Part shown: piece after piece, positions 1 through 59,201 of the stretch
Position numbering within the stretch: the stretch's first letter is position 1
Layout: each line of letters starts with the position of its first letter
Origin: Onchidella celtica
Lineage: Eukaryota; Mollusca; Gastropoda; Systellommatophora; Onchidiidae
DNA length: 64,000 nt
Reading direction: 5' to 3'
Assembly: GCA_963931925.1 (NCBI GenBank)
Contig: OZ007569.1
Coordinates: 4,636,007 to 4,700,006 of the forward strand
Made by a program: the position numbers and the translations under genes
Notes under the pieces: generated by a model
What the model was told of the DNA's origin: nothing
Databases searched by the model: none
The model's input: the letters and a program-made list of their open reading frames with translations, nothing else

Positions 1-764
1 ATTGGAATGTCATTTATACATAATGAAATTAGGAGTGAGAGCACCACACTTTCATAACAAAAACTAAAAATCGGCAAAATATCACATACAACAATATTTA
101 TCACGGTCCAGATGTCAACTTTCCATTATTCATGAACACAGTAGCCGACCTTTCAATCTGCCATTTCGTCGAGCCTCAATGATTCTGTGGGATAGAAAAC
201 ATTACTTGTTTATCAAAATCACCAGCTCACGTTCTTAAATAATCCATAACTTGATCGGCTTAAAACATGAATTCTTTGAGAGCCAGCATGTTTCCGTCAA
301 CTGGCAGTCAAATGTGGCAACAGCTCCTACTGTTGCACCCATACTTAACTTTACCGGGATTTCATTCCGTTCTGATCCTATGAGTACTCTTACCATTGTT
401 CCGGTTTACTTTCTAGGCACTTTACAAAACGAACCTCTACCACTGAACTGTTTGGGCTGCGTGTGCAACCTCTAGACTACAACCACGATACAGAAGTTAT
501 TTGTGTGTGATTTCTCTATTTGAATTTTACGCCATCATGTCAGAATGTATCAAAGCAGATCTGTCACAAAATAATGCCAATGTTGAACTCTGCACTTTCC
601 AGAAAGAGATCAAACCATTAGCGTAGGTTTTCTGCCAGCACACTGTGGGGTCAGTTGAGCTGCTGCTACAACTAGCACATGTGATACTGTGTCCACCATT
701 TACTGCCATATAATGTACAAGGTTGTACCCTTACATCCATAGCACCAGGTGTGTTGAAGGAACC
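1..764. other. Upstream region of the receptor gene
   Basis: AT-rich sequence with no coding region I can support. It should hold the promoter and 5' UTR of the receptor at 765, but I see no clear TATA box, upstream exon or repeat. A frame open from a TTG at 723 is only the upstream extension of the receptor frame. Confidence 0.5.
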
Positions 765-3700
765 ATGGCTTTCTCTACACCAGTCAGACAACGCATTGGC
801 TTTTGGCTGCTTGTAGTTTTACACTTTGTGCTAAGCGGACTGAGCCAGCGGATCAGACCTTTCCCATTAGAGCCTGAGGAATGCCAACAACAAGACATTG
901 ACCTTTTGCTTATCGCAGATGCCAGGGGAGACCTCTCAGTTGCTTCTCAAAAACTGCGAACGCAAATATTATTTTTTCAAGAACTCATGGATCTGTTTCT
1001 CGCCGACCCAGAGGAGCCAGTGAGCAGATTACAAGTGGCTGTAGCTGTCAATACCAACTCGGCTCCGCTAATGCAAATTTCCTTTGGAGAGTACCGTGAT
1101 TGGTGGGAATTTCACAGTCTCGTGTCGAATTTAACCATTTCTGACGAAATCTCTGGCGATCCTGGGAATAAAAGTAATGACATTGTTGAGTTTCTGCAGC
1201 AGTCCTTTGACTCTTTGCCCAAGCACAGAAAAAATGCGATAGACCGTGTGATAATGGTGCTGGCCGGTGATATTTCCACTAACCTCGTGCGTGACATCGG
1301 ACAATTCCATCAACACTGGGATGTTGGTATCTTTGTGGCCATGGTCGGGTCTGGGACAGCTGTGGAGAAGAGAAATGTTGCAGCAATCAGACATAAGGTT
1401 ATGGTTACATCTTTCGACGATCTTCTGGAGAACCCATATGTTCCCATGGCTATTTGCAAACGGTGTCATGGTCAATATTTTGACGAGCAACTGTTACTAA
1501 GTGCTGGGTTTGAAAGCCGATCCGGCTACAGCTGTTATAAACTGTATCGTTTAGAGACAATAGTGTCTTGGTCCAAAGCTAGACATTGGTGTCTGAAGAG
1601 GAAAGCTGAGCTGGCTGCGTTTGAAAGCCGCAGTAAATATGAGTTTGTAGATCAGTTCTTAAAACGCTGGAAGTATTATTTAGATGTTCCTGACGATTCA
1701 GGCGAGTATGTATACACTGGCCTAAATCGAATTACAGATTCACTGGGTCGAAGATTTCGATGGATGAATAGACGACCTGTGTTCGAGAAAGAAGTTTACC
1801 TTCCAAGTATAAATGTGTGGAATGGGGAATGCGGTGCCATACAGAATCATTTCCAGACTACCTATTGGCCTACCCTGCTCAAAGTAGGTTGTGGTGTTGC
1901 CTTGACTGATATAGTTTTGTGTGAACTGTCTCTTGATTATCCTTTGGACGACAGAGGTGAGTTGTTCAGACCAGCTCCAAACAGATTCCGCAGTTTCACT
2001 TCCGCTCTTTCCCGTGGCGATTTTGTGGAAATTGATGGGGAAATTGTGTCAGTGTCAGCCGCCGTACGAGACAGCTCACATTTAGGAATGCTGCAAAAGG
2101 CAGGGCGGAACATGCCCTTGTTCACGTGTGATGGAGGAAATCAGGTCCAGCAACTTGCCTACACCAATGTGTGTGATTACGTTCGGGACTGTGAGAATGG
2201 CCAAGATGAGCAGATATGTCAATACAGAGTGTGTGATCCTCAGCGGGAACTTACATGCCCCACTGGTCATTGCATACCCCTGGAGGCACGCTGTGATCTA
2301 TACAAAGATTGTCCAGATGGCAGTGACGAAGTCGACTGTCAGGAATGCATAGGACGCCGCTGTTGTGACGGGATTTGTATTCCTTCATACTGGTTTGGTG
2401 ACGGCACAATTGACTGTAACGTGTGCAGTTTTGGATATGAATTCAATAATTCATTGGCACATGATGAACTTGTATTCGCGGGTCTTGTGCCAAGCTCCAA
2501 CGAGGACTGTGTTTTCATCTGCAACAGAACACAGTGTGTTTCACGGTCACAACTGAATGATGGTATAATTGATTGTAGAGGTCCAGAGGGACATTTGGAT
2601 GAAACCATAGGGAAACTTAAACCTGCCAACTGTTTGTCTCGCATTGCTCCCAAATGCGTGTACATCAAAGATAGGTATGATCATGTTTTAGGGTGCCGGG
2701 GTGCCACTCATTTATATGATTGCCAAGAATTTGAGTGTTCTGAAGGCTATGTCAAATGTCCCGATTCATACTGTATACCTCTTCATTATCTTCAAGACGG
2801 CAATCCCGATTGTCAATTGGGCGAGGACGAGATGTACATTGAGCATCACAACTGTTCTGGCAATTTTGCCTGTTGGAATAGTTCTGTATGTGTCCATCCT
2901 GACTTAGTTTGTGACGGCCATAATGACTGTCCATCGAGTGATGACGAGCTGTCTTGTTACGTAACCTGCATGCCAGGTTTCTTCTGTTCTGGAGGATCTG
3001 TCACTGTATCTGAATTTAACACTTCCCAACCTCTTCAAAGTTTGGCTTTCATAGATCCGGAAACACGTTACCTTGATCTTTCCAGAGTTGACCTTTCCTC
3101 AGAATTTTCTCACCAAGAACGTGGTAATTTCCTTCACTTGTTACACTTGCGTCTCTCACACTGCAGTTTGAAGGATGCACTAGGTCACTTTGCCCAAAAT
3201 ATTGATGGCCTGGCTACCGTTCACTGGATGGATTTGAGCTACAATCTTATCATAGAAGTCACAAAGGACAGCATGTTTATTCACATGACAAATCTAAAAT
3301 ATCTAAATCTGTCTCACAACAAACACTTGTCCATAATTCATAAAGACGGTCTGCACCCTGTCTCCCAATCTTCGCACCTTCAAAGTCTGGATCTCTCCCA
3401 TACCAGCATCACCTGCCTAAGTGGATACTTTTTCCATGGCACCGGAAGTTTACAGTATCTGAACCTGAGTCAAACATCCATAAACACTTTAAATGATATT
3501 TCCTTCCCAGCAAACTTTGTTCTTCTCGAATTGGATCTGCGAGAGACCAGCATTGAAACATTCCAGCCTGGTGCCCTCGAGAAACTTCAAATCAGAGACA
3601 GTCTGTACTCAGACAGTTACCAGATATGCTGTCCACAGGTGAGAGGATCACATATTCCAGAACATACCTGCCATGCCACAGAAGACACCATCTCTTCCTG

Positions 3701-4616
3701 CAGCCACTTGGTGGGGAGACAACGCCTGCGGGGTACTATGTGGTTGATGGCAGTTGTTTCCTTTGTCGGCAATGTCATGCTGCTTGTCTGCAGATGCACG
3801 ACTGTTGAAATCTTCACGAGAGAAACTGGCAAGATATTGAGGTCCAATCTGTGTATATCTAATATGATTATGGGCGTGTACATGTTCATTATTCTGGGTG
3901 CTGATGTTTACTATACAGATACATATGTACTTAACGAATACTGGTGGAGACACAGCGAGTTATGCCAAACTGCAGGCGTCCTGGCTACTGTCTCCATTCA
4001 GACCTCGCTCTTGTTCATTTTTCTGATGATCATTCACAGATACAGAAACGTAAGGCTTTCTCCGCACGACAGAAAAGATTCCAAAGTGGTATTAGTTGTG
4101 ACATGTTGCATAGTGGTCTGGCTCATTTGCTTCCTGCTCGGTGTCCTGCCCGTCCTACCGACCTTTAAACATTGGAAAGTCTACTCTTCCAGTGGAATGT
4201 GCTTGGAGTTACCACTCACTACACAGCGATCGCCTGGAAGTATTAAAATTTACTCTCTGGCAGTTTTTACAGTTTTCAATTTGGTGATTTCCTTGAGCAT
4301 AGCTGCCGGTCAGTATCTAATCTACAGAGCCGACTCTACTGCGAGAAAGGAAACATCGGCCGAGGGGCCCGGTGGACAAGAAAATATTAGTGTTGCTAGG
4401 CAACTGTCCTGGATGGCAATAACCAACATTCTGGGTTGGCTGTCCATAGGAACTATGGGATGCCTGTCACTGATTGGATCAGAGATCGGCTCTGATGCCA
4501 TCGCCTGGTCCACTGTTATCCTGGTACCCATTCATTCTGTGCTCAATCCCATCATTCAGCTCCTACCCATCATCTGGAACAAATGGGAGGCATTTAAACA
4601 TGGGACGTCCTCCTAA
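765..4616 (+). CDS. Intronless LGR-type GPCR with vWA, C-type lectin, LDLa and LRR ectodomain (GRL101-like)
   Basis: This is a 1283-residue plasma-membrane receptor in one open frame. The start is the ATG at 765, in a strong Kozak context (aaccATGg) and followed by a signal peptide (about 1-28); the frame also runs back to a TTG at 723. Domains in order: vWA-like fold (about 45-230), C-type-lectin-like domain (about 256-388, with WNGEC and a C-terminal LCEL), LDLa modules (about 455-485, 490-525 and 697-731), degenerate Cys-rich modules between them, leucine-rich repeats (about 765-940, LDLS and LNLS repeats), a Cys-rich hinge (about 955-980) and seven helices (about 990-1270). The 7TM part shows class A LGR features: GN in TM1, HRY in place of DRY after TM3, and NPIIQ in place of NPxxY in TM7. 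Known family: LDLa-plus-LRR receptors are type C LGRs (relaxin receptors, Lymnaea GRL101). The ligand is unknown. The vWA metal site is degenerate (DARGD instead of DxSxS), and the lectin domain lacks an obvious EPN/QPD motif. The tail is very short. Confidence 0.9.
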   Translation: MAFSTPVRQRIGFWLLVVLHFVLSGLSQRIRPFPLEPEECQQQDIDLLLIADARGDLSVASQKLRTQILFFQELMDLFLADPEEPVSRLQVAVAVNTNSAPLMQISFGEYRDWWEFHSLVSNLTISDEISGDPGNKSNDIVEFLQQSFDSLPKHRKNAIDRVIMVLAGDISTNLVRDIGQFHQHWDVGIFVAMVGSGTAVEKRNVAAIRHKVMVTSFDDLLENPYVPMAICKRCHGQYFDEQLLLSAGFESRSGYSCYKLYRLETIVSWSKARHWCLKRKAELAAFESRSKYEFVDQFLKRWKYYLDVPDDSGEYVYTGLNRITDSLGRRFRWMNRRPVFEKEVYLPSINVWNGECGAIQNHFQTTYWPTLLKVGCGVALTDIVLCELSLDYPLDDRGELFRPAPNRFRSFTSALSRGDFVEIDGEIVSVSAAVRDSSHLGMLQKAGRNMPLFTCDGGNQVQQLAYTNVCDYVRDCENGQDEQICQYRVCDPQRELTCPTGHCIPLEARCDLYKDCPDGSDEVDCQECIGRRCCDGICIPSYWFGDGTIDCNVCSFGYEFNNSLAHDELVFAGLVPSSNEDCVFICNRTQCVSRSQLNDGIIDCRGPEGHLDETIGKLKPANCLSRIAPKCVYIKDRYDHVLGCRGATHLYDCQEFECSEGYVKCPDSYCIPLHYLQDGNPDCQLGEDEMYIEHHNCSGNFACWNSSVCVHPDLVCDGHNDCPSSDDELSCYVTCMPGFFCSGGSVTVSEFNTSQPLQSLAFIDPETRYLDLSRVDLSSEFSHQERGNFLHLLHLRLSHCSLKDALGHFAQNIDGLATVHWMDLSYNLIIEVTKDSMFIHMTNLKYLNLSHNKHLSIIHKDGLHPVSQSSHLQSLDLSHTSITCLSGYFFHGTGSLQYLNLSQTSINTLNDISFPANFVLLELDLRETSIETFQPGALEKLQIRDSLYSDSYQICCPQVRGSHIPEHTCHATEDTISSCSHLVGRQRLRGTMWLMAVVSFVGNVMLLVCRCTTVEIFTRETGKILRSNLCISNMIMGVYMFIILGADVYYTDTYVLNEYWWRHSELCQTAGVLATVSIQTSLLFIFLMIIHRYRNVRLSPHDRKDSKVVLVVTCCIVVWLICFLLGVLPVLPTFKHWKVYSSSGMCLELPLTTQRSPGSIKIYSLAVFTVFNLVISLSIAAGQYLIYRADSTARKETSAEGPGGQENISVARQLSWMAITNILGWLSIGTMGCLSLIGSEIGSDAIAWSTVILVPIHSVLNPIIQLLPIIWNKWEAFKHGTSS

Positions 4617-7100
4617 CTTCTTGTTTTACCGTCTCCTGGACAGGGTAAAATGCTAGCAGACCATTTAATTTTCTTCTCATGAGTATAGCTCATTTTTTCA
4701 ACTTGTCTAGGTCTACATCGCTTGACTTTTATAGTCATTTGTACGATTGGAGAGGAATATCACAATTGTACATCCCAAACTGAATCACATATGCCTGAAA
4801 TGAGTTATCGTACTTGTTGTGTCAGACAAACAGAGACTTGTCATGTATTCAAGAGGACGGGGATCCGGGAGTTCATGACAATTTGGTCATTCCATCGGAG
4901 CAACAGAACATTTGATCCAGAAGGAGAATTTCTGTGAGTTCCAGTCATGATTTTGTGTCCAAGCCACCCAAGCGCGATCGACGTGATTCCTTCACACCCG
5001 TCCAAGAGAATCTTTTCCCGTTCTTGGGTGTACTAATGTGTGTGTCATGACTCAATTTTAAGGTTTAATATGGCACGCGCTAGATAATGGGAACATGCGT
5101 GCCGCGTCAGCCGTGGCCTAGTATCTAAGGTCAAGGAGGCAGACGATGACTGTGGTTTTTGTGACGTCAGGTTAATCAAGGAGGGGCGGTGGATTGACAG
5201 GATAGCGGAGGCAGAAACAGAGTAAATAAGATATCGCTGATTTTTTAATGAATAGGTTAGAAAAGGTCAGCAAGAATATATACTAGGGTAGATGGTGGAT
5301 ATTTAGATAAAAAGATAATAGGGCATTAATGATAATTTTATTAACGCCCCGGGTTAGACTAGGGGGAGGAATTATATTTTGGACGGTTAAATTGACAACC
5401 AATCAGGGCAGGCGTACTGATATTGTTATTAGTGGTCTACCGGCGGCGGGAGAACTAATTCTTCAGTTCTAGACGGATGCTCAAACAACCAGCCGTGTGG
5501 GAACTCAGGCTTTAAACTTTTCTCCTAGAACGAAAAGCAGTGGACTAGATCTACCCATGCAATCTTGTGCATAACGTAGGAGCTAACAGAATGCTCATGT
5601 TCTTTGCACAATGTGCTGAAAGCTTGGAATGGACTGTTCTCAACCCATCAGTTGAGAATCAATGGTAAATGTCAAAGTTATGCCACCATAACGTCTAAAT
5701 CCCAGGAACAGATCTAGAGCAGGACGTCGCTGCGGATATCTATCTTTTGAACGAATGGAATTTACCTGTAGCCTTTACATTTAACAATGTGGAACAGTGA
5801 TTTTGAAAGAATGAACTCTACGATTAATGTATCTCTTTGAGATCTAACTAGATCTGGCTATTTTGTATTTAAACTGAAACTGTCTTGGATTTGGTGAGAC
5901 TGGGAATTACCAGCTCATCACAGCTCTAGAAGACCTAGATTCTAGATCTATGCCATATAACGTTTTATTTTGATGGTATGAGTGTCATTTGAATGTAGAT
6001 CTAATATCCTACCTGTAGGATTTGTAGTTAAGTAAATATTCATATGCCTATGTCTCCGTAGTGAGTTAGGCAAGTCTGTAGAATTACTTAAGTAACATTG
6101 TTCAGCCTTGGACATAATGATAGATATAAAATAATTAGAGGGTTAGTGTTTTAGTGGGGGATTATAAGGATGAAAGCATTGAAAGGAATTGATTTAGAAT
6201 TAGTTTAGATATTTAAGATAGAATGACATTATAGAATGGTTCCAGACATAGAACTGATATAAATTTCTATGACCATTGTTGTTCATCATAGTTCACATTC
6301 ACATACAATGTGTTGTAACTTATGTCAGTAAACGGTTTATGGCCCTGCAGGTCTGCCTAAAAGTTACCCAATATGTTATTTAGTAATTAGTATTGTTGTG
6401 CGTGAGTTTAATTCATTTACACATACAAAAATGCAGTCGAAAACATATCTTCACACAACATAGTAAATGCTAAGCACACCCCATTCAGAACATCAAGAGG
6501 GGATCGTAACAGTATGGAAAGTTAAGTTAAAAGTGTTAGGTGCAGGGATGAAGAAAAATCAAAAGAAAAGCCAAAGTACAACTTGGAGGAACAAAGATGG
6601 TCTACACTTCCGTATAAATGGTAGTCCCAAGAAATGTTACAAAATTACAATGAAGAAAACTGAAGTGTGTAATTTTTTTTCCCTACACAGAACAAATAAG
6701 TACCGTAAATTCATCAAGCTAGACATAAATACAGTGTATAATGAATTGATTTGATTTCAGTTCTTCAAGTTCCCGTGTAACTTTACATTTGGACTAAAGT
6801 GGTTGTGGATCTCCGGTGCAAATACTACAGTACAGAAGTACCCGCTGTCGGAATGTAATGTTACAGAAGTATCCATGGACCAAATTTCAATTAACAATGG
6901 ACTCGCATCAGTGTATTTGAACCCCCCCCCCCCTCCCCCTAACAACGTATTTAAACTACTGTACATTTATTGTAACAAAAATAATTTGTAAATTTCACCA
7001 AGATTCCCAGCTGCTCGATCTTGATTCTTTAATTAAATGTCTCTTTTGTAGACAGTCGTTGTTTATGTTTTCTTTTCTTTTCTGTCAGATTTGAGATGTC
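4617..7100. other. Intergenic region downstream of the receptor
   Basis: No coding region is supported. The start presumably contains the receptor 3' UTR, but I found no convincing AATAAA close to the stop. Between about 5480 and 6010 the sequence is rich in overlapping AGATCT and TCTAGA palindromes. A C-run lies at about 6921-6940. Short open frames here (for example 6467-6754) have no recognisable domain. Confidence 0.5.
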
Positions 7101-9309: not shown

Positions 9310-9674
9310 CACAGACTAATAAATTAACCAGACTGGATGATCCCATTGTGTGACGTCACAAAACAGCGAAAAGTCATGAACCATCCGCCATATTAGGTTT
9401 ACGGTAGCGACCGACGCTTCAGCATAGCTACAATTTTGAATGACACCATTTTGACGCGCCTACTGAACGCGGAAGTTTGGTTCCGCACCAAGAAATTAAT
9501 ACATGTACAACCAATCTTGACAAATGAAAAGAAATTTCTACTGCAGATAGAACTAGAATCGGGATTTCCCGAGCGGCGGCCATGTTGGTTATACAGTCGT
9601 CGCTCGGGAAATTCCGTAAAAAACGACACAGCCCGAAGCTCGTGTTTCCATTCTGGTTAATTTATTAGTCTGTG
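9310..9674 (+). mobile_element. MITE family M, copy A (365 bp, 8-bp TSD)
   Basis: Terminal inverted repeats of about 28 bp begin CACAGACTAATAAATTAACC and match at 27 of 28 positions. The element is flanked by a perfect 8-bp duplication, CACCGACA (9302-9309 and 9675-9682). Eight-bp duplications suggest the hAT or P superfamilies. It carries a full CRE octamer TGACGTCA (9351-9358) and an internal inverted repeat around the TTTCCCGAGCG motif. An open frame of about 76 codons on the minus strand is shared with other copies but has no recognised domain. Confidence 0.9.
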
Positions 9675-15632: not shown

Positions 15633-15844
15633 CAGCTCTTTCTCCGTGTATCCGGGTCTATAGTTAGAGAGTTGCGAAAGTTAGTCTTGGAGCATTAACT
15701 TGTTGAGTTAAAGAATAATGATACTGCATTAATACTTTAATAATAATGGTCTTAGTTCATTAAACTATATTAATTAGAGAATGGAACTGTACTAGTTTTA
15801 GTATAGCATTGATTTCGTAAATTTACTAACCTACTGATGTGTGT

Positions 15845-15960
15845 ACCCATGCGAATGTCTGAAGAATGTGATAGCTTGGTTGCCTGAAGAATGTGATAAT
15901 TTGGTTGTCTGAAGAATGTGATAATTTGGTTGTCTGAAGAATGTGATAATTTGTTTGTCT
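15845..15960. repeat. 25-bp minisatellite, left part
   Basis: Units of TTGGTTGTCTGAAGAATGTG plus ATAAT repeat with a 25-bp period, about four to five copies. The same unit resumes at 18746, on the far side of the LINE. Confidence 0.85.
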
Positions 15961-18745
15961 TCTTCTTCTTCTTCTGCGTTCTTCGTGTCAGACTATTTAT
16001 ATCAGGAGGCCGGTAGCCTTTATGAAGGATGCTGTGCTCCTGAGTTCCTCTGCTGTCCCATATAGCTTGGTGTGTAGTGCCGCACCTCGGGGCCAGCTGT
16101 TTTCCCTCAGTCTGTTCTCTGTATAGGGGGCATTGTTGGAGGACATGTTCTGCATTCTCTGGGCAGTTTCCACATGGGCATGTCTCAGTTTCTCCAACCC
16201 TGAATTTTTTGTAAAGGTGCTGCCGGAGTCTGTTATGTCCTGTTCTCAGCCTAAAAATGATACTTTGCTCCTTTCTGCTGAGCAAGTGTATCGCATCGTC
16301 TGTTACATGGCTTGGATGACTTTGTTTCCACTTGGATTTCAAGGCTGCCTTAATGTGACTTTTAGCTTCTGAGACTGTTATGTTTTCTCTGTCTTGGGGG
16401 AAGTTTGCGCCATTTTTTGCCAGAGTGTCTGCCTTATCATTTCCGATGATGTTACAGTGACCAGGGATCCACTGGAGAACCACGTTGCTTGCTGTGTGGC
16501 ATAACTGCACTAAGGCAGAGGTGAGTTTGTTTTGATGATAATCATGTGAACTTTGAAGGGCCTGCAGGACTGACCTAGCATCTGTGAGAATAACTATTTT
16601 TTTGTTGTATATGTCTCGGTTTTGTAAGTTTAGCGCAGCTTCTAGTATGGCTTCTGTTTCAGCTCTGTAGTTGGTAGAATATTTCCCTGTGGGTACTGAC
16701 AGCTCTGATTCTTCCCCATTAGTCCATTAGATATGTATACTACCTCCTCCATCTCTTACGGCTTCTTGTGCTGACCCGTCCGTGAATACCCGGATCCAGC
16801 TGTTTTGTGGATAGGAGCTGTCCAGCATTTCCTGTGTGAGTGATTGCAGCTCTGCCGTGGACTGATTGGTCTTGGAGGTGATGCCGTAAATGGTGTCTTT
16901 GATTAGGGGAAAGTGTTGTCTTTCCCATGGAGGGCAGCAGGCAACCTCTGTAAGGTCCTCGTCTTCATCTATGGGTGGGATTTTAAGGTTGTTTAACTGT
17001 TGTCTAGCTGATTTTATAAAGCTGGTTCTTTTTAGTCTGCTTTTTGTTGGTTTCTTTACTCTATCATTCATCGGGTGATTTCGAAGGTTTTGAAACTTTG
17101 TTAGCTGTGAGGTTAGTTTTCCATTTTTTCTGTCCTCCAGTGGTTGTAAACCAGTGATGCTCTCCATCTCTACAATAGGTGTGGATTTCATTCCCCCGGT
17201 GATAGTTCGAAGGCTCTGGTTTTGGATGCGTTCCACTCTCTGGAAATTGCTCTTTGCTGCTGCTCCCCATGCTGAGATACCATACTCCAGAACCGGACGT
17301 ATGTATCCGGTGTAGGTTTTCTTAAGTATGTTTTGTGCTGCACCCCAGTCTGTGCCTGCCAACTTTTTTAGGAGCGCAATCCGCTGCATTGCTTTAGTTT
17401 GGGTCTTTTCCAGATGGGCTTTCCATGTCAGTCGTTGGTCAAATGTCACTCCGAGGTATGAGGGTGAGTCGTCTTTGATGAGAAGCTCGTTGTTGATTTT
17501 GAGTTTAGGTGCCTGCATTCTGGTGGAGAGACTAAAGACTGTGTGAGTTGTTTTCTTGGCATTCAGCTTCATGTTCCATGTTGTTGTCCATTGTTGTAGG
17601 TTGTTTAGGGTAGACTGAAGACGCATCTGAGCTGTGCCAAGGCTTGTCTCCGAACAGAGTAGTGCCGGATCATCAGCATACATTACCGCTTTCACTCTTG
17701 GAGTTAGAATTTCTTTTATGTCATTCATGAAGAGGTTGAAGAGTGTGGGGGATATCACTCCTCCCTGAGGGACTCCATGTTTCAGTTGTGCAGTGCTACT
17801 TTGTTTACCTTGTAACCTTACTTTTGCTTTCCTGTCGGTGATGTATTGTTTTATCCACTGGTACATACGGTTGGACACTTTCGCTTTTAGGAGTTTAAGA
17901 AGGAGACCATTCTTCCATACGCGGTCGAGGGCTTTCTCCATATCTACCCATACTGCGATGGTCACTTTCTTTTCCTGGAAACCGTCTTCTACGACTTGTG
18001 ATATGTAGGTTATCTGGTCCTCTGTTGATCTACATTTTCTGAAACCGGCTTGTTCGTCCATGATGAGCCTTTCCTTCTCGATGAACCAGGTTAGTCTACT
18101 GTTTATGATCCTCTCCATTACCTTACACAGGCAGCTTGTAAGGCTGATTGGGCGGTAGCTATCCACTCTATTTCTTGGCTTGCCTGGCTTGTGAATTGGG
18201 ATGAGTGTGGCTTTTTTCCAGGTTCCAGGAATCCTGCCATATTTCCAACTGGAGTTGCAGAGGGCCAGCAGTTTCTTCTTAGCATTCTGTCCAAGGTGAA
18301 TTAACATATCATTTGTTACTTCGTCTGGACCAGGGGCTTGTTTTGGTTTCAGTTTCTGGAGGGCAGTGTTCAGTTCCTCCATGGTGAGTGAGCTGGTCAT
18401 TGTGTTCTCCTCCGGCTGTTCTGGTTGGCTGTCTTCCAAGTCCTGTATGTTTGCTTGTACTTCCTGTTCTTTATCATCGTCTACATCTGCGTTGCCAACA
18501 GACTGGAACTGTTTCAAGAGTTCTTGTGCAGCTGCCTTTCCAGATAGGAGGTTGCCTTCTTTTTCAATAGTTATCGGGGCATATCTGTTGGGTTCTTTGT
18601 TGAGGGACTTTGTTAGCTTCCATAGTTTGGACCCATCCTTCTCAAAGTTCAGACTCTCTGTTTTTTCATGCCAACTGTTTCTTATTTCAGCCAGTGTGTT
18701 CCTTCTTAGTTTTGCTGTGAGTGCTTTGAGTTTGATGTTGTTATT
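15961..18745 (-). mobile_element. RNase H-bearing LINE, 5'-truncated, inserted in a 25-bp minisatellite
   Basis: A minus-strand non-LTR retrotransposon. The 3' end is an (AAG)n tail, read on the plus strand as TCTTCTTCTTCTTCT at about 15959-15975. The 5' end stops abruptly at 18745, where the minisatellite resumes. Reverse transcriptase, RNase H and a C-terminal Cys-rich zinc-knuckle region are present; the endonuclease and ORF1 are missing. Apurinic-endonuclease LINEs with RNase H include the I/Nimb group known from snails, but the clade is not proven here. A related fragment lies at 24046-24360. Confidence 0.85.
15975..18745 (-). pseudogene. LINE pol: reverse transcriptase plus RNase H with one nonsense codon
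   Basis: One reading frame covers the whole fragment, interrupted only by TAA at 16727-16729. Reverse transcriptase motifs: VWVDMEKALDRVW, GVPQGGVISPTLFNLF and the catalytic VMYADD. RNase H follows, with FTDGSAQEA, AETEA, LTDARS and PGHCNIIGND supplying the acidic residues and histidine. A Cys/His cluster (CPCGNC...EHVLQQC) lies near the end. The in-frame stop is within RNase H. The frame continues in phase on both sides of it, so the copy is young. The N-terminal endonuclease is absent through 5' truncation. Confidence 0.85.
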
Positions 18746-19112
18746 TGGTTGTCTGAGGAATGTGATAATTTGGTTGTCTGAAGAATGTGATAATGATAAT
18801 TTGGTTGTCTGAAGAATGTGATAATTTGGTTGTCTGAAGAATATGGTAATTTGGTTGTCTGAAGAATGTGATAATGATAATTTGGTTGTCTGAAGAATGT
18901 GATAGCTTGGTTGTCTGAAGAATGTGGTAGCTTGGTTGTCTGAAGAATGTGGTAGCTTGGTTGTCTGAAGAATATGGTAGCTTGGTTGTCTGAAGAAGGT
19001 GGTAGCTTGGTTGTCTGAAGAATGTGGTAGCTTGGTTGTCTGAAGAATGTAGTAGCTTGGTTGTATGAAGAATGTGATAGCTTGGTTGTCTGATGAATGT
19101 GATGTATTGGTT
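18746..19112. repeat. 25-bp minisatellite, right part
   Basis: About 14 copies of TTGGTTGTCTGAAGAATGTG plus ATAAT or GTAGC. Some units carry an extra GATAAT (31 bp). Variants cluster: ATAAT-type units lie near the LINE and GTAGC-type units lie distally. Confidence 0.9.
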
Positions 19113-19412
19113 GGGAGTGAGTTAAGGATCCGAGTTAAGTAAAAGTTGAAAATTTATTGCTGCAGCCAATAAAAAATTTCATTTCCCTGAGTGTCCATAA
19201 CTTTCTGGGCTGACACTTTATGGAATCCACTGTCTGGATGTCAGAGCAGGTCTCAACACGCTGTTTTGGGCTTGATAGGGTGAGCATTAGCAGCTAGAAC
19301 ATCGTGTACAGAATGAACTGCTCATTCGGAAGTGAGTAATAGCGCATCTTTTGTTTTTGACTTGCTGACGAGGAAATCATTATAATAATATTATACCCCG
19401 TGTAGATCTGTC
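19113..19412. other. Upstream region of the dehydrogenase gene
   Basis: About 300 bp between the minisatellite and the start codon. It probably holds the promoter and 5' UTR. No TATA box or upstream exon could be assigned with confidence. Confidence 0.4.
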
Positions 19413-21476
19413 ATGGAGCTGAAGGGTAAAGCGGCTTTTATCACTGGCGGAGCACAGGGTATCGGCAGAGGAATGGCTGAGGCGCTGCTACAGAACGGAG
19501 TCAAAGTGAGTGGTTGGCGTAATTTTTTATGTTTGTTTCGGACAAAATATTATATAAAACACACACACACATACACACAGCAAATCTGTGGGGTCGCAGC
19601 AAAACTTGAAGCAGGGTCAAAATGTGGCAAAATGAAAAAGTTGTATGGTACAAAGCCTCGCTTAGGAAAATACGAAATAATACAGAAACGATACAATCAA
19701 AAGCAAAGGAAAAGGAAAGACAACCGCCCCACCACACCCTGGGGGGTCGATCTGTGCTCCCAGAATCCAAGTCTGGACCTCGCAGAACGATACGTTTTCG
19801 TATTAAAATTTGTGAAAATTTTACGATTTTCTTTATATTTGTTTTATTTCATTTTTATACTGTAAGAAGTTTTGGCGTGAGGAAGATCTGTTGGCTGTAA
19901 GCTCGATCTGTCTTCCCCTTCCCTCTGCGTTTTATTGTACTGTTTCTGCATTATTTCTTACGCGAGACTTTGCTAAATATACGGCCTTTTCTTTTTGCAG
20001 TGTTTTTGGTGTATTTTGTTGTTATTTTCCCCCCATTATTTCTTATCTCACATGAAGCAAGAGGTGGCGGGCCTTGATCTAATGCACATGTGTTTAGGAG
20101 TACGGATTGAGACGCAAATGAAGTAAACTTAAAGTACACAATTTATAATTATGTCACATATACCGGTACAATAAACCATGTGTTGTAAGTTATTAATTTT
20201 GGTCTTCCATGTGTTGTAAGTTATTAATTTTGGTCTTCCTTGTGAGTTTTATGTATGGTAATTACATCAGCTGGCTGCACAGGCATGTGTAACACGATCT
20301 CTTTACGTATTTGGGCAATAGGCCTGTCAGTCTAGATGAGCAGAATGGCAGAGAACAGAATTATCTGGAAGTGGAACACCTTTGTAAGATAGACTTTCAA
20401 ATGCTAACTTGTTAATTAATTAATAACTGTGGAGACTGAATTCTTATGATAGTGTACAAGGCGGGCGACAGAAATGAAATAAAAATGATAATGAGGAAAA
20501 TTTTAAAAAACAGAGAATAGCACATGGAGTTTAGAGGAATAAAAGAAGAGAGAAATGAAGACCCGGCAAAATCTGAAAAAAAGAAAGAGGCATAAAGAGA
20601 GACGGGGAGTGACAGAAGAGATCATCGGCTGTGTTACAATACAAGATAGCGAGTTATTTACACGTCCTGTTAATAACGTTAATCTCCAACCCTTTACGAA
20701 AACCTCAAGCCAAACTGATGATTTTTCTCTCCATTCATGATCAGGTATTTATTGCTGACATGAATACAAGTGTGGGTGAAACCGCGGCTAAGGAACTGGC
20801 AGAAAAGTTTGGGCAGGAAAACATCAGATTTGCCACTCTTGATGTTACTGATCATCAAAACTTTGCAGGTCTGTTGCTACACCCTTTCCCAACTTTGTCA
20901 TTATGTCCTCTTTGTTTCAAGGTTGCAAATAAACAAAGAAAATGACAAAAATGGCATTTTTATGTGGTCATATCATAGGAAGTGAACAGATAAAAGAGAT
21001 TAACTGATTTGGCACATTCACCGACATTTTGTTTCCTCCTGGTCCATAGCTTTCAACAACATCATCCTGTCATGGTAGAAACATGCCATTTTGGACAGAT
21101 CTGCATCTACCACCAGAAAAAATGTTGGCCAAATCTGGATCCGTCAGATATTCCTGTGATACAATTTTTAACAATTGTCACGCTCTTGCAAAATTCCTTG
21201 CGAATTATTCGTAATTCGCCCACTGAAGAACTCAATTTTGGTGTGCCACAGAAAAGATTGTAAAGATCGCTTTAGCTATAGTGAGACCATTTTAAGGATC
21301 CCCCTTTGCCATTTCTCTGCTTCAGTTTCATACCAGTTTCTGAGTTTCTGAAAACTGCAGACTGCCTCTTATTTTCATCATGTCGCATTTCCCAATTGAA
21401 TCTGATTCTTATCACACTATGGCATTTTGAGAGATAGATTATAGAAAGAAAGAGAGCGCGAGAGAAAGAGAAAGAG

Positions 21477-28140: not shown

Positions 28141-29916
28141 AGACTGTTGTTATAATCGCGGACACATCCCAAGCATTTTGCGCTAGGGGCACATACGTGT
28201 GCGTAATATCCCTAACCCCATCCATATCTTCAACCCTAAATCTTATCGAATCCCTAACCCTGACCTCTACCCTTTCAATAAAAAAACTGGAGGGAAACAA
28301 AAAGAAGATCTGAAAGAATGATTAATTAAGGCTGTTATAAGGAGTATTTTGTGAGGAGCTCTGAAGTCACAAAACACTTTAAAATATGTATCCATAGGGC
28401 AAAAAACTTTGTAACAATTTATATAGCAATATGTAACAAAACATGTACCAATAAGTAACAAAACAAAATATTTCATTTGTGTCTATGACTTGCTGAATAG
28501 TGCACTGGGATAATTCAGTATCAACAAGGATCTGAATACACGACACGGCCACGCTTTTCTCCGCTAAACCTTCAAGACTTTCCTATTAATAGCCTGAACT
28601 TTGTAATCATAATTATGTACCAATATGTAAAAAAAAAAAAACTTATGTACCGGCGCTGTATGCAATAAACCCAAACGTATATTTGAACGTGTATTTGAGT
28701 ACATTTTTTTTCATGTTTACTTTGTCCTACCCGTGATCATAATTAGTGGTGATTAATACAAAAGTGATACGCTACGCACGATAGTCACACTGAAGTACTT
28801 ACGTGTAACCAGTGGATCAAAGGAAACAACTCACCCAAAATGTGTGTCGGCGGATAATTTTTATGATTATTGCCCTTAGAACACTCGCCTCCTGGATCCT
28901 CCAGCGCGCCTTGGTCTCAGGCGAATGAAAGAACAAAATACTCGTCAGACTGAGAAAAGAAGTAATGAATGGCTTTTTTTTTGGGGGGGGGGGGGGGGGG
29001 TCAGCAAAAAAAAATATATATATATAATAGACAGGTCAGCATCTGAGGAGAAGAATTGTAAGTGATGCTTTGTTTTAGAACATGATTCATCGTAAATAAC
29101 TGCAGCAGGTTTTATTTTATTTATATTTTATTATCTTGTTGCAGTGTTTCCACATAAGGTTCATATCTTGTAGCAATGTTTCCCCACACACAGAGATAAG
29201 GTGATGCATTACTGGAGAAATTCATATGGTCAATGAACGCCGTACGACAGGGAGTCCAGATGGGTAGAAAAGCTGCAAACCACCCACACTTTTCAAGACA
29301 TTTTGAGGAGCAGCTTTGATCTGTCCTGTGACAGGACACTCGTCAATTCTTTACATTATTTTGTGTTCGTGATTTACATTGGTTTACAGTTTAGAGTACA
29401 AATGTATGATGTTTTCCTTGAAGCCTGGCGTAACCTTTTTAGGTACTTTATGGCTGGAATTCATGATTTGAATTCGATCATTTGGCGTTTTACGTGTAAA
29501 GACATCATAGGACATCCTGGGCTAAATCTAATTTTTAGCATCGTTAAAATATCTTTTTTTCTTCTCTGGGATATATATAAATATTTTATTTTTTTTTACT
29601 TACAAATAGTTTTATTTGGTTATGACAAATTTAATGGAACTGGATAAGGAATTAATCGGGGGGCGGCACACGCGCTGAATGTTGAAAACTGTACAAATTT
29701 GTTTTTGGGCACTTCCGGCATTTTCACATAGCACGACAGACTTGTTCTTGCATGTTCAGTAATTCATTGTGTTGTCTGGGGCGTTTTTCACTCACATGGC
29801 CGGGTGGTTGGTGGACGCTCCTGATACAGTGGTAGGCTCTCCTTCTGTCCTGTCATTCTGTAATATTCTGTCTATAGATGGTCTTGTTACTTCCTAGCAC
29901 AACATGGCCGTTATCG
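28141..29916. other. Intergenic region
   Basis: No gene supported. It includes CCCTAACCC-type motifs at about 28212-28275, an A-run near 28630 and a G-run at about 28983-29000 followed by (TA)n. Confidence 0.4.
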
Positions 29917-29924
29917 TGTCGACG

Positions 29925-30440
29925 CACAGACTAATAAATCAACCAGACTGGAAACACAAGCTTCGGGCTGTGTCGTTTTTTACGGAAGTTAATGAGATGC
30001 GGCTGTACAACCAACATGGCCGCCGCTCGGGAAATTTCTATTCTAGTTCTATCTGCAGTAGAAATTTCTTTTTATTTGTCAAGATTGGTTGTACATGTAT
30101 TAATTTCTTGGTGCGGAACCAAACTTCCGCGTTCAGTAGGCGCGTCAAAATGGTATCATTCAAAATTGTAGCTATGCTGAAGCGTCGGTCGCAACCGTAA
30201 ACCTAATGTGTATTAATAATGCATTATCTTGCCTATCCTTTCATTTTATTGTCTACAGCTGCCTTTTTTTTTATTGTTATAAATGATGACCGTCTGGACT
30301 TTTAACGACCGCTGCATTGTAGCTATGCTGAAGCGTCGGTCGCAACCGTAAACCTAATGTGGCGGATGGTTCATGACCTTTCGCTGTTTTGTGACGTCAC
30401 ACAATAGGCTCATCCAGTCTGGGTATTTTATTAGTCTGTG
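29925..30440 (-). mobile_element. MITE family M, copy B (516 bp, perfect 8-bp TSD)
   Basis: Ends are CACAGACTAATAAATCAACC and ...TTATTAGTCTGTG, flanked by TGTCGACG on both sides (29917-29924 and 30441-30448). It is longer than copy A because the segment TAGCTATGCTGAAGCGTCGG occurs twice, separated by an AT-rich insert with TGTCTACAG. It represents a longer subfamily shared with copies C and E. Confidence 0.9.
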
Positions 30441-36093: not shown

Positions 36094-38088
36094 TGTTCTG
36101 TATCGTACTCAAGTCACAAAGAGCTGAGAACTCATATATTGAGCAAAACTGTGCCTGTGCACATTATGACTACAAAATCTTCATGCAAGTTCTTTCAGCA
36201 TGCACTACTCCAATAATAACAGTTCTGGGTTTAATGTACTTTGCACAAAATACAATACAATTATTTGCTGATCTTTAGGCAGAACTCTATTGTTTGTTTC
36301 AGTATTCAAGTGGACTTTCGGCATGGTCTAGAACTTGTCCTTTCAACTCCTCCTTGTTTGACTTGCACTGTGTTTTGTCAGTGCATAGTCTGTGGCGGTC
36401 CACCAGTAATTTTGTCTTCATGCCAAACTATCCCCTCGTTCATCAGTGTCTAGGAAGAGCAGATTTGAACTTAGGGACAGTTATATTTTCTTGCGCCATT
36501 GTGATTGGCGTGACAGCAGTGAAATAAAATGGTGAACAGGTTTCTTAATTGCTCACTTCGAATGTGTATTCTCGCCTATAACTCGTGATGAACTCCTGGA
36601 GGTATGTGAGGATGGCCAAACGAAAGACGGAAAGATATAATTATTTTGTACGTTTTGCCCATCATTAAAAAAGTACATGTATTTATTTGTTCAGTTATTC
36701 ACATGAGCTACGTACACACCGTTGGCCAGGATAAATCAACCCCTGCATCCGCGCCCTCCCCCCCCCCCACTCTCTCTATACCCCTTTCCGCCCCCTTTAC
36801 TTTTTCTCTTTCTTACTCTCTGTCTCTCTCTCCCCTCCCCCTCTTTCCCATTTCCCCCTGTCTCCCCCTCTCCCCCCATCTCCCACCCTCCCCTCAATGT
36901 GACTGAGAGCTTTTGCGAGTGAGAGGGGACTGGTTTATGTAAAAAAAAAAATGTGCGGGGTTTTGTATAGATATTATTTTGTTTTGTTTTGTTTAAACTT
37001 GGCTGTGAGTCCAAAATAATGATCAAAGTCATTGCAGTTTATCAGTGGAACTACAAGTCAAGATTTTAAAAACAGAACAAACAAAAAAACTTTCGCAACA
37101 TGTGGAAACACAAAATCGATAAAAGAATCATGTTCAAGACAGTATCTTGAAATAGTTCCCATGTTCTTGGCATTGAAATTGCATCACACTTGACATTGTC
37201 AAATGTGTCCCATGCGCACCAACGCCTGCAGATTCCCTTCCGGAGAAGTGCACCAAATTGAACTCTCTTGAAAGCAATAAAATGTTTATAACTGTGATTG
37301 TATTCTTTACCAAGTCCCCAAATTTGTATATATTATATAAATTTATTTGTTTACTTATTTATTTGACTAACTTTCTCTTTTGCACCTCAGATGCCTCCTC
37401 GTTGTCCCAGCGTGCTAAGAATCTTCCCTACTTCACAGGGTGCGTATTATTCTTTCTGCTTGAATGTTTGTCCATAAGTATGCTGTAACTGTGGTAGGCA
37501 CAGACAAAGTGGTAAACAAACTTATGTTGACATCAAGATGGCTGCTTTTTTCGAGGGCCTGAGATGAGGAGGGGAATAACATAATAGGAATCTCTTCAGT
37601 CATGTTCTTCTCCGCCCCTGCCTTAAAAATACAGTGGGGTGGGGGGGGGGGCAAGGTGGAGGTGGGGGTGGGTAGAGTAGGGGATGGAGGGTTGATACCC
37701 TATCGATCTTTATGATAACTTTTTCAGTAGAGTTTATACAGTAGCGGCTTCAAGAAACTCTGCAGGCACTTCTTATTGCCTCTCATGTAATGTAAACATT
37801 CTGATTTTTCATTCAACATTCATGAATTAAATTAACCACCCATCATTGCATGTCAAGCCAGACATTAATATAGAAAGTCTGGATGTTAATTATGAATATA
37901 GTGTCTGCCTTCCAGTAAACATGCCCACAGAAATAGCTGGCCAGACAAGTTCTGGTCTCATCATGCCATGTTCTGGAAAATAAAAGTAGAGCAGTGACAT
38001 AAGAATATCTGGCAATTTAATAATGTATCTGGTATATCTCTGTACAGTAGTATTCCATATCATAGCAGTAAAGAAAGTGGAGAAAATA
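36094..38088. other. Intergenic region with CT-rich stretch
   Basis: No gene supported. It holds a C-run (36761-36770), a C/T-rich tract (about 36770-36895), an A-run near 36941 and a G-run near 37640. Open frames across these are low-complexity artefacts. Confidence 0.4.
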
Positions 38089-38091
38089 AGA

Positions 38092-38152
<61 letters not shown>

Positions 38153-38161
38153 GTCTATCTG

Positions 38162-38234
<73 letters not shown>

Positions 38235-38257
38235 ATATCTATTTATCTATTTGTCTG

Positions 38258-38336
<79 letters not shown>

Positions 38337-38393
38337 CTCTATCTATCTATCTATCTACCTATCTATCTATCTACCTGTCTGTCTGCCTGTCTG

Positions 38394-38458
<65 letters not shown>

Positions 38459-38493
38459 TTACCTATCTGTCTGTCTGTCAGTCTGCCTGTCTC

Positions 38494-38576
<83 letters not shown>

Positions 38577-38617
38577 GTGTGTGTATTATGTCTATCTATC
38601 TATCTATCTATCTATCC

Positions 38618-38693
<76 letters not shown>

Positions 38694-38770
38694 GTCTGTC
38701 TGTCTATCTATCTGTCTATCTATCTATCTATCTATCCCTCCGTTAGACCGCCTGTCTATCTGTCTGTCCT
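38089..38770. repeat. (TCTA)n array, about 680 bp
   Basis: Very long, highly regular TCTA/ATCT array with sparse TGTC, CCTG and TTTA interruptions. It creates a long open frame of alternating Tyr/Leu/Ser/Ile that is not a gene. Confidence 0.97.
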
Positions 38771-39095
38771 TTTTATTTATTCATCTCTTTATTTATTAAC
38801 TTTAAAGGAGAACTGGCTCTGACATTGCGGCACGAGTTAACTGCCATGTCATCCCGACCTTAATCCAAACATCCTGAAGTGTAAGACGATTTCAAAACCT
38901 CTCTCGAGGATCAGTTGGATCATCTTTACACTCTGACTTGGATGTCCTGGCGAGGCGGTCTGAGTATGGGCAGAATCACTATTGTTTTCTATCTGGGTGA
39001 CTCTACCAGTGCACACACAAAGTTATTATGTTCACTACAGAGATGGTCTGGAGAATATTTCCTAGCCTAACAATGAGTTGGTATCCATGTAACAG
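38771..39095. other. Intergenic spacer
   Basis: About 325 bp with no recognisable gene or repeat. The last 8 bp (TGTAACAG) form one target-site duplication of the next MITE. Confidence 0.4.
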
Positions 39096-45967: not shown

Positions 45968-48340
45968 TCAGTTTTTAAAAAGAAATGTTTTTAACCTGTT
46001 TTTAAATATGTTTAGAGAGGCAGAATTTCGAACCTCTTGTGGTAAAGAATTCCACACACAGGGACCAAAACAACTAAAAGCTCTATCTCCATAATTTGAT
46101 GTTTTACACCTGGGAACAACCAGTTTGTTTTCTGTAGTAGATCTTAAAAATCTATCAGACTCATGTTTTTTCAAAAGTTCCGAAAGATAGGAGGGAGCTG
46201 AACCTTCAAGACATTTGTAAACCAAAACTGCAGCTTTAAATTTTATTCTGTTTTCAACAGTAAGCCAGTGAAGTTGGTCAATAAGGCTTGAGGCAGATTC
46301 TCTTTTTGATTTTCTAAAAATCAGTCTAGCTGCATTATTCTGAATTATCTGAAGGCGTTTTATTTTGTTGCTCGGAATTCCAAAGAGCAGAGAGTTACAA
46401 TAATCAAGCTTTGAAAACATAAGTGAAGTGATAAGTATTCGAGTTGCCTCTTGGGATATGAATGGACGAATAGAGCTGATGTTTTTTAATTGAAACATTA
46501 ATGATCGACATAATGAACTTATTTGATTTTCCATGCTGAGATCTGATTCTAAAATTGTGCCTAAGTTTTTAACTTTATTCACGTTTGCTACAGTGCTTTC
46601 ACCAAGATTTAATTTTACATTTTTAATTGCAGTAATTTGTCTTTTCTTTCCAATAATCATAACTTCTGTTTTGTCTTCATTTAGCTTTAGTTTGTTTTGG
46701 TTCATCCTGTCACGAGTGGAGTGAGTGCAATTAAGGGGATTGCTACAGAGCGGGTGTAGAGTAAGAATGACTCACAGTAGACAGCAAGTTAAGCGTGCTG
46801 TTGTGAGTAGTGGGAGGAAGTCTGAAGGAGGCGAAAGCGCTGTATAACTATCACTGCAAGTTAGAAGGTCCTAGGGAGCGGATCTGTGAATAATAGCCCA
46901 TCGGGCAGAGATAAAAGGAAGCAGTCGAGAAGACTAGTGAGAGTCTTTCCAGTTATGACTGGTATGTAGAATGTTGATTGATTATTATGATTGATGTATT
47001 ATATTATATTCGTCTATTACCATGATGTGAATAAGTATATGTGAGGAATGTGGAAGTCCTTGATATTGGATATAGCAATGTGCGCCATGAGCGATAGATG
47101 AAAGTGAGTTCATGGATTTGTAGCGCGAGTGAGTAGTGTGTACTCCGATGGAAGTGTGTTACCGTAAGATGTGTGGTGAGTGAAAGGTGAACTAGTGTGT
47201 GTACGCTTCATGGATTGTAAGGAGAGGTGGAGTGAATAGAAATGGTAGGGTATTATACCAATGTAATGTTATTCTTGTAGGTGTCGGGGACGGGCCGCAG
47301 AGCCACCTCGATGAGCACAGGGGATAGGCCAGCATAGGGCCGGAGGCCACACATAGGCCAGAAGTGAGGCTGTCAGTGCAGGACAGTAGAGGCACATAAA
47401 GTCGTGGCAGTCAGGCCACGGACAGGGACGTAGATATGAGAGTGAATGAGATACTATGTTGTTGCCATGTTGATAGGCTAGTGAACTGATATTATGTTGT
47501 TGCCATGTTGATGGCTATGGAAATAATAATGTGTTATTGCCCTGCGGAGGTGCTAGGGGAGTGCTAAGGTGTATGACAATAGGAAGGTGATATTGAGAGA
47601 CTGCGGTGCCAGTGAATCATTAATGTACTATTAAGACCCTGAGGGGAGAGGCTGAGGCCGAAGTGCCTTTAGGAGTAACTACCGGATTGTGGATCCGAGG
47701 GAGCGTGTGTGTGAGAATAAGGCCGTTGTACGGCAGTCATTTCAATAATATAATATATGTAATTGCGCTATTATATGTATAAGTATGTTTAATAAATGTG
47801 TGAGTCTGATGGGTTGTTTTGTTAAGTGTTAAACTTGTTTGTTCGTGATTGTCGTCCTGTCATAAACTATTACATTTCCCAGTCTGGGATTTGTGACACA
47901 TCCATTCTTTTGTGTCCATAATACACTTTTCACTATCTTTTATAACATTGTCAACATGACCTAAAGTCGTACCAGGGTGATATAGTTGGACATCATCAGC
48001 ATACTGATGGTAATAAAAACCATGATCTTTAAAAATATTAGACAGGGGCCCAATGTACATAATAAAGAGAGTGGGGCCTAAAACTGAGCCTTGTGGAACA
48101 CCATATGGCAGTATGTATTCTTTTGATTTTATGTTATCTGTTACAACAATTTGTTTTCGGTCACATAGATAGGACCTGAACCATTTCAGAGCTATACCAG
48201 AGATCCCATAGGTTGCTTCTAATCTGCAAAGCATAATTTCATGATCTATAGTGTCGAAGGCAGCTGATAGATCAAGAATGTTTAAACACGAAACCAAGCC
48301 CTTGTCCAGTAATCCAAACAAATCATTAACAATCTCTTTA
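45968..48340 (-). pseudogene. LINE reverse transcriptase C-terminal half, interrupted by the LTR
   Basis: The upstream segment (48340-47896) encodes the RT palm: LDLSAAFDTIDH, GVPQGSVLGPTLF and the catalytic YADDVQLY. The downstream segment (46705-45968) encodes the thumb and C-terminus: NKLKLNEDKTEVM, KNLGTILESDLSM, LDYCNSLLFG and FGPCVWNSLP. The frames join exactly across the insertion (EWM then NQNKLKL). Apart from the LTR the coding part is open. The N-terminus, including any endonuclease, is lost by 5' truncation at 48340. Confidence 0.85.
46708..47898 (+). mobile_element. Solo LTR (1191 bp) inserted in the LINE coding region
   Basis: Begins TGTCACGAG and ends TTGTGACA, with inverted TGTCAC/GTGACA termini. 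It is flanked by perfect 5-bp duplications CATCC (46703-46707 and 47899-47903) inside a LINE codon series. A GATAAAAGG box lies at about 46910 and AATAAA at about 47790, consistent with plus orientation. No internal coding region, so this is a solitary LTR from an LTR retrotransposon, most likely Ty3/Gypsy. Confidence 0.9.
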
Positions 48341-48488
48341 TATGATCTCTATAAAGGCTTTGTAAATAGACTACGGTCTCCTAACAAGATCCAAAAACTT
48401 CCGACTTGGCTGTTGTTTAGGGGACCGTGGAATGTTACAAGGTAAACTGTAGATGAGCAGTGAACACTACTCACTATGATCTCTATAA
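48341..48488 (+). repeat. Dispersed repeat R, remainder of copy 1 and copy 2
   Basis: TATGATCTCTATAAAGGC, TAGACTACGGTCTCCTAAC, CTTGGCTGTTGTTTAGGGGA, GGTAAACTGTAGATGAGCAG and again TATGATCTCTATAA. The second TATGATCTCTATAA shows a tandem unit of about 140 bp. The LINE lies within the first unit and a Harbinger element within the next. Confidence 0.65.
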
Positions 48489-49162
48489 GGGCCGGTTCAG
48501 ACAGGGCGGTTTAAACCGCGCGGTTGGAAACGCGCAGTTGCATTTTCAATGATAGCCTATGGAATCGTTCACACGTAACCGCAGCGTTTCCTCAACCGCC
48601 GCGGTTGTGAGTTTCCCCTCGCAACCGCGCGGTCGGCCAGCGGGTCGAGATACCTACACACATAGGCATCGTACACACACGGCTGGTCTCCCGCTCGGTT
48701 TGCAGTACGCCAGCCAATGAGAGAACAGGATGTGTGATGTAAACAAAAGCTTTCTGGGCTGATGCAATCCCTCATCGGGGTCTTGGTTGAGGACAGGTCG
48801 TCCTTGACTAGTTGCAGCAAGTCGTCAAATGATTTCCTGGACATTCTCAAATAATTGAAAAACTTTTCTTCATGCGCCCTTAAGGAAGGATACAGGGTGG
48901 TAAACATGCCGTGCGTTAGTCTATCACGTAGAATGGGATGAATCCAATATTATCTTTGTCTCTGTTTGCGTCGTTTTAAGCGGCGATGTAACAACCAAAC
49001 GCATGTTATTTCCTCCACATCCATCCTGACACTGCTTAAAATTTCCAGTTCTTGAGTCAACCGCTGTGGTTACGTCGCGTTGCAAACCGCCTTGTCTGAA
49101 CGATACCAGCGGGAAATGCGCGGTAGCCGTCGCGGTTGAAACCGCCCTGTCTGAACCGGCTG
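48489..49162 (-). mobile_element. PIF/Harbinger element, internally deleted (674 bp)
   Basis: The inverted ends share GCCGGTTCAGACAGGGCGGT and are flanked by the 3-bp duplication TAA (48486-48488 and 49163-49165), as usual for PIF/Harbinger. Sub-terminal sequence is rich in AACCGC/GCGGTT palindromes. It retains the start of the transposase gene on the minus strand, fused to the opposite end by an internal deletion. Confidence 0.88.
48790..48970 (-). pseudogene. Harbinger (HARBI1-like) transposase N-terminal fragment
   Basis: The minus strand encodes YWIHPILRDRLTHGMF, then LRAHEEKFFNYLRMSRKSF, then TKTPMRDCISPE, the conserved N-terminal region of Harbinger DDE transposases (WxHP, DEEKFFNYFRM, MRxxISPE patterns). 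A stop codon precedes YWIHP and similarity ends after ISPE, so the DDE catalytic core is deleted. The open frame continues to 48569 through terminal sequence that is not transposase. Confidence 0.8.
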
Positions 49163-55183: not shown

Positions 55184-55548
55184 CACAGGCTAATAAATTA
55201 ACCAGACTGGAAACACGAGCTTCGGGCTGTGTCGTTTTTTACGAAATTTCCTGAGCGACGACTGTATAACCAACATGGCCGCCGCCCGGGAAATTCCGAT
55301 TCTAGTTCTATCTGCAGTAGAAATTTCTTTTCATTTGTCAAGATTGGTTGTACATGTATTAATTTCTTGGTGCGGAACCAAACTTCCGCGTTCAGTAGGC
55401 GCGTCAAAATGGTGTCATTCAAAATTGTAGCTATGCTGAAGCGTCGGTCGTTACCGTAAACCTAATGTGGAGGATGGTTCATGACCTTTCGCTGTTTTGT
55501 GACGTCACACAATGGGATCATCCAGTCTGGGTATTTTATTAGTCTGTG
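55184..55548 (-). mobile_element. MITE family M, copy F (365 bp)
   Basis: Ends are CACAGGCTAATAAATTAACC and ...TTATTAGTCTGTG. The flanks CAATAACA (55176-55183) and CCATAACC (55549-55556) match at 6 of 8 positions. It is almost collinear with copy A in inverse orientation and keeps the shared 76-codon open frame and the CRE octamer. Confidence 0.88.
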
Positions 55549-59193: not shown

Positions 59194-59201
59194 GTTCTTC
59201 C

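Follow-up and report, generated by a model that had tools for sequence, protein, structure and literature searches.

A type C LGR of Onchidella celtica with a C-type lectin-like domain and a putative vWA-type domain ahead of its LDLa and LRR modules

A single uninterrupted gene of the gastropod Onchidella celtica encodes a receptor that, judged by its sequence, belongs to the type C LGRs and carries, ahead of its LDLa and LRR modules, a C-type lectin-like domain (CTLD) and a putative vWA-type domain. The gene lies in the 64,000-nucleotide stretch of DNA analysed here, referred to below as the window and numbered from its first letter. A preliminary description of this DNA, based on motif reading, had proposed a type C LGR with vWA-like and lectin-like folds in front of the LDLa and LRR parts, and the results of Pfam, phmmer and Foldseek agree with that arrangement.

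Gene structure and genomic setting

The reading frame of the receptor occupies positions 765-4616 of the forward strand and runs for 1283 residues to a stop codon without an internal stop, which bears out the earlier proposal of a single LGR-type GPCR frame at 765..4616. The start codon is an ATG in a good context (ACCATGG), the nearest in-frame stop on its 5' side is at position 711, and the translation, read by eye, opens with a signal-peptide-like hydrophobic N-terminus (residues 1-28; 765..848, forward strand). At the base composition of the window, the probability of 1283 codons without a stop is about 1e-34, and the remaining five frames over the same stretch contain 48 to 80 stops each; together with the upstream stop, these figures rule out a chance open reading frame. 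The receptor is encoded by one complete, uninterrupted, single-exon gene. That the whole receptor is contained in one such frame suggests that a retrocopied transcript was the likely ancestor of the gene. A search for direct repeats of at least 14 nucleotides within window positions 1-6500 yielded no clear pair that would represent a flanking duplication, and no A-run of at least 8 was found within 2 kb past the stop codon, the first A- or T-run of at least 8 beyond the gene being located at 6673, so any retrocopy event would be old.

The gene sits at the left edge of the 64-kb window, within which tblastn detected no second copy of the receptor. Relatives were also sought in a collection of bacterial and archaeal contigs, where three stretches were matched by pattern, and, for the LRR-7TM part, in viral contigs, where two stretches were matched; none of these proved to be a true relative.

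By reading, the longest remaining frames of the window include those of mobile elements, as well as simple repeats. Frames resembling the reverse transcriptase and endonuclease of non-LTR retrotransposons were recognized, by reading only, on the reverse strand at 15770-19153, 45968-48348 and 50851-53936. Similar translated pieces define an interspersed repeat with four copies (9397-9660, 29898-30200, 55198-55461 and 59139-59561), the first of which is oriented opposite to the others. The translation of a long tandem array on the forward strand (37990-38822) displays YLSI-type repeats in all three frames, and that of a reverse-strand fragment at 48569-48949 reads as a putative transposase start, which we take to be of the Harbinger type. 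On the forward strand, positions 19413-19511 contain the start of a short-chain dehydrogenase gene (Pfam adh_short, 26.2 bits, just below the cut-off of 26.6), which resembles 15-hydroxyprostaglandin dehydrogenase. A further exon of this gene is possible near 20703-20879, where the Pfam support is unconvincing; the dehydrogenase gene may contain introns, unlike the receptor gene.

LDLa, LRR and transmembrane parts

The LDLa array spans residues 451-745 (2115..2999, forward strand) and was recognized by Pfam as Ldl_recept_a with 75.6 bits on the whole protein (cut-off 24.1), in five stretches when the corresponding slice was searched and in four on the whole protein. One of the repeats (490-525) is fully canonical and the others carry inserts; the array holds 36 cysteines, and a phmmer search of this part against the PDB returned chains of the LDL-receptor family. 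The array is followed by about seven LRRs, as counted by eye, at residues about 755-950 (3027..3614, forward strand), which are supported by Pfam LRR_8 (58.4 bits on the whole protein and 66.0 on the slice, cut-off 27) and by the phmmer alignment to RXFP1. A cysteine-containing hinge (residues 951-989; 3615..3731, forward strand), which aligns with the hinge of RXFP1, connects the LRRs to a rhodopsin-type 7TM domain with a very short tail (residues 990-1283; 3732..4613, forward strand), identified by Pfam 7tm_1 (50.5 bits on the whole protein, cut-off 30.5), by the alignment with 7tmw_R and by hydropathy. Since 7tm_1 was listed and neither GPS nor GAIN was present among the nine Pfam families reported at an E-value of at most 1, an adhesion GPCR (class B2) was rejected.

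Among solved structures, the closest relative of the LRR-hinge-7TM part in a phmmer search of the PDB is human RXFP1 (7tmw; E 3.8e-36), which aligns over the LRRs, hinge and 7TM at positions 72-522 of the 538-residue slice; the next match is an unnamed family-1 receptor (8w1z), behind which come the thyrotropin receptor and LGR4. It is on the basis of this nearest solved relative that the receptor is classified as a type C LGR. RXFP1 has a single LDLa module and is not known to carry a CTLD or a vWA domain, whereas the Onchidella celtica receptor has about five LDLa modules plus the CTLD and the vWA-type domain, and the two also differ in residues of the activation motifs. Within the type C LGRs, for which a scheme of types C1 and C2 is laid out in PMC4079206 and PMC11863921, the presence of several LDLa repeats makes the receptor appear most like GRL101, that is, type C2. 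GRL101 and the type C2 LGRs are likewise described as having multiple LDLa modules, LRRs and a relaxin-receptor-like 7TM domain (PMC8286064). According to the same source, GRL101 of Lymnaea stagnalis has twelve LDLa modules and six LRRs, compared with about five LDLa modules plus a CTLD and a vWA-type domain in the Onchidella celtica receptor.

Several activation-motif residues of the 7TM domain are changed. In the alignment with RXFP1, residues N1033, H1091, N1221, S1227 and Q1265 stand in place of D, E, D, P and Y, at positions that we take to be 2.50, 3.49, 6.44, 6.50 and 7.53, and R1092 in TM3 is aligned with a K of RXFP1. A motif scan of the protein found neither D/E-R-Y in TM3 nor NPxxY, while TM3 keeps R1092, TM7 keeps its NP, and W1225 is likewise present. 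These features suggest that G-protein coupling may be altered, with the reservation that motifs alone are not decisive on this point. The five replacements, the lack of the TM3 D/E-R-Y and NPxxY motifs and the very short tail would also be compatible with an adhesion or decoy receptor that either does not signal or signals constitutively, and in which the 7TM domain is mainly an anchor; given the retention of R1092, W1225 and the TM7 NP, and the limited weight that motifs carry with regard to coupling, we regard such a role as quite unlikely. The same residues have a bearing on a hormonal function. The receptor could respond to an insulin/IGF/relaxin-like peptide hormone bound by the LRRs, with the vWA-CTLD head serving as an accessory or docking module, as might be expected from the match of the LRR-7TM part to RXFP1, its nearest relative among solved structures, with aligned LRRs and hinge, and from the proposal that GRL101 is a second IGF receptor (PMC8286064). 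We nevertheless consider a hormone receptor unlikely, because the activation-motif residues are changed relative to RXFP1 and because plain type C LGRs, as described in PMC8286064 and PMC11863921, manage without a vWA domain or a CTLD.

The outer domains

The CTLD comprises residues about 248-388 (1506..1928, forward strand). Pfam Lectin_C passed its cut-off of 22.6 both on the whole protein (28.2 bits) and on the slice (32.4 bits), and a phmmer search of the lectin part against the PDB returned C-type lectin chains, the best with an E-value of 0.0028. Cys276, 356, 376 and 386 are located where we take the canonical CTLD pairs to have their cysteines. The lectin half of the two-domain structure model was poorly modelled, with no C-type lectin chain among the best 50 Foldseek matches of that model and with VIA-align alignments mostly covering model residues 13-207, so the CTLD assignment rests on Pfam and phmmer.

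The only doubtful domain call is that of the vWA-type fold at residues 38-234 (876..1466, forward strand), a region bracketed by Cys40 and Cys231/234. Pfam VWA was not listed for the whole protein at an E-value of at most 1. On the slice 28-234 it scored 15.0 bits, below the cut-off of 23.8 (E 0.029 with 24736 models), the match covering residues 62-208 and profile positions 15-150 of 174; if counted for a single model named beforehand, this score would by our arithmetic correspond to about 1e-6. With an E-value of 0.012, the unrelated family HTH_70 scored slightly above VWA on this slice, and the vWA assignment is therefore left unsettled by sequence comparison alone. When the slice was shuffled, VWA was matched in none of nine cases at an E-value of at most 1, and one other weak family appeared once. 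A phmmer search of the slice against the PDB found no vWA chain and gave a single non-significant match, 4nof (E 1.1), a chain of the polymeric immunoglobulin receptor; NCBIfam returned nothing for the slice and one far-sub-threshold match for the whole protein.

The call is therefore one of fold matching by weak models. Two AlphaFold2 single-sequence models that include the vWA region have low confidence, with mean pLDDT values of 39.8 and 49.7. The first, which comprises both domains, has an order of strands and helices that fits vWA, and the second has only four strands of at least three residues, which falls short of the number in a complete vWA sheet. For each of the two models, the best 50 Foldseek matches are vWA-type chains, as judged by title or, for part of them, by the proteins that we take them to be. 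VIA-align also matches the model to vWA chains; in the matches listed by the two programs, identity to the vWA structures is 6-17%. An alternative is that residues 38-234 represent some other α/β fold or a fast-evolving stretch, in keeping with the sub-threshold VWA score and the slightly better HTH_70 match, the lack of a vWA chain in the phmmer results, and the low confidence of the models, the second with its four strands only. The vWA-type nature of the best 50 Foldseek matches of each model, the strand-helix order of the first model and the failure of all nine shuffled slices to match VWA argue against this alternative, which we consider very improbable. Thus, both a CTLD and a probable vWA fold were found within residues 45-390, the part of the protein where the preliminary description had placed them.

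According to the Foldseek and VIA-align matches, the vWA-type domain would share its fold with the vWA domains of vWF A1/A3, collagen VI, ANTXR2 and factor B/C2, but the DxSxS motif is missing in the Onchidella celtica receptor. A motif scan found no DxSxS anywhere in the 1283-residue protein; by eye, D52-A-R-G-D56 takes its place where the first strand ends, and A167-G168-D169 occupies the usual T-D-G place of vWA domains. As far as these motifs indicate, a normal MIDAS is absent from the vWA-type domain and the site is degenerate, and metal-dependent vWA adhesion is unsupported given the absence of DxSxS. Likewise, neither an EPN/QPD-type nor a WND motif was found by the scan in the whole protein, which leaves classical calcium-dependent sugar binding by the CTLD unsupported and makes it unlikely that the domain binds sugar in this manner. 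The absence of both the MIDAS and the sugar-binding motifs of the CTLD suggests that the ligands are proteins or other macromolecules. Of the functions suggested beforehand, glycan recognition thus loses ground, as does adhesion of the metal-dependent vWA kind. Adhesion or protein recognition in general, rather than the sensing of a small hormone, remains plausible, even though a peptide-hormone receptor is the nearest match of the LRR-hinge-7TM part among solved structures.

Relation to known receptors and proposed function

Lectin-bearing receptors of the GRL101 type are known from Biomphalaria sudanica. The SudRes2 region, which is associated with resistance to Schistosoma mansoni, is reported to contain ten genes for GRL101-like receptors that combine LRR and LDL class A domains with an N-terminal C-type lectin domain, and two further GRL101-like genes lacking a domain, making up a cluster of 12; the validated SudRes2 variant is situated in the neighbouring Zn-RING-IAP gene, and six genes elsewhere in the genome are annotated with GRL101, CTL and LDL domains (PMC12297450). 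As described there, the SudRes2 receptors share with the Onchidella celtica receptor the 7TM domain, the extracellular LRRs, the LDL class A modules and the N-terminal CTLD, a lectin domain that the source calls unique to them in comparison with Lymnaea GRL101. They differ in belonging to a 12-gene cluster, compared with one copy in the window, and in that their description does not mention a vWA domain: the term "von Willebrand" is absent from the available text of PMC12297450, and both "von Willebrand" and "VWA" are absent from that of the preprint PMC11722531. Our literature search found 20 papers that mention GRL101, none of them combining it with "von Willebrand factor", and no report of a vWA domain on a receptor with CTLD, LDLa, LRR and 7TM parts. 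The terms VWA, GPCR, LDLa and LRR occur together in a sponge paper, in the available text of which VWA and LDLa appear only in the domain list of a figure legend. The architecture had been presumed rare or undescribed; this does not apply to the combination of CTLD, LDLa, LRR and 7TM, which has been published (PMC12297450), but stands, as far as our search extends, for the addition of the vWA domain. The claim to novelty accordingly shrinks to the vWA domain, the lectin-bearing receptor type being already known.

The explanation that we favour, tentatively and with a little less than even confidence, is that of a GRL101-like type C LGR with a vWA-CTLD head, acting as a recognition receptor. 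A vWA domain devoid of a normal metal site and a CTLD would together form a distal recognition head on a single-exon type C LGR. These outer domains would bind a macromolecular, probably protein, ligand derived from a pathogen, a symbiont or the matrix, and would depend little on a MIDAS metal or on the calcium-sugar chemistry of classical lectins. The binding event would then be relayed through the LDLa, LRR and hinge parts to the relaxin-receptor-type 7TM domain. This domain would act on a G protein, to which its coupling may be altered or constitutive in view of the changes in several activation-motif residues. By analogy with the SudRes2 receptors, innate recognition appears to be the single most likely use of the receptor. 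A point against this explanation is that no SudRes2-like cluster is seen in the window, at the edge of which the gene lies. Alternatively, the receptor could be chemosensory and respond to dissolved or surface-bound cues, as a GRL101-like gene is enriched in the sensory tentacles of the crown-of-thorns starfish (PMC6267866). Those data concern only differential expression, in an animal of a different phylum whose other tissues express the gene too, and the starfish protein is described as having six LDLa motifs, with no lectin or vWA domain mentioned in that description (PMC6267866); a chemosensory role is, in our estimate, improbable.

The complete single-exon frame would ease cloning of the gene. 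It is possible, if doubtful, that all lectin-bearing GRL101 receptors, including those of the schistosome-resistance region, have a hidden vWA domain at the N-terminus, one that escapes InterPro-type searches through the loss of its metal site. In that case, a two-domain vWA-CTLD sensor head on a relaxin-receptor chassis would constitute a new GPCR architecture for invertebrate immune recognition. Should the head be limited to this one receptor, it would represent a curious domain shuffle. If it is common to the lectin-bearing GRL101 receptors, it would show which piece to express and assay against parasite, bacterial and host-matrix proteins, and would provide an example of a hormone receptor of the LGR family that has been converted to a role in recognition.
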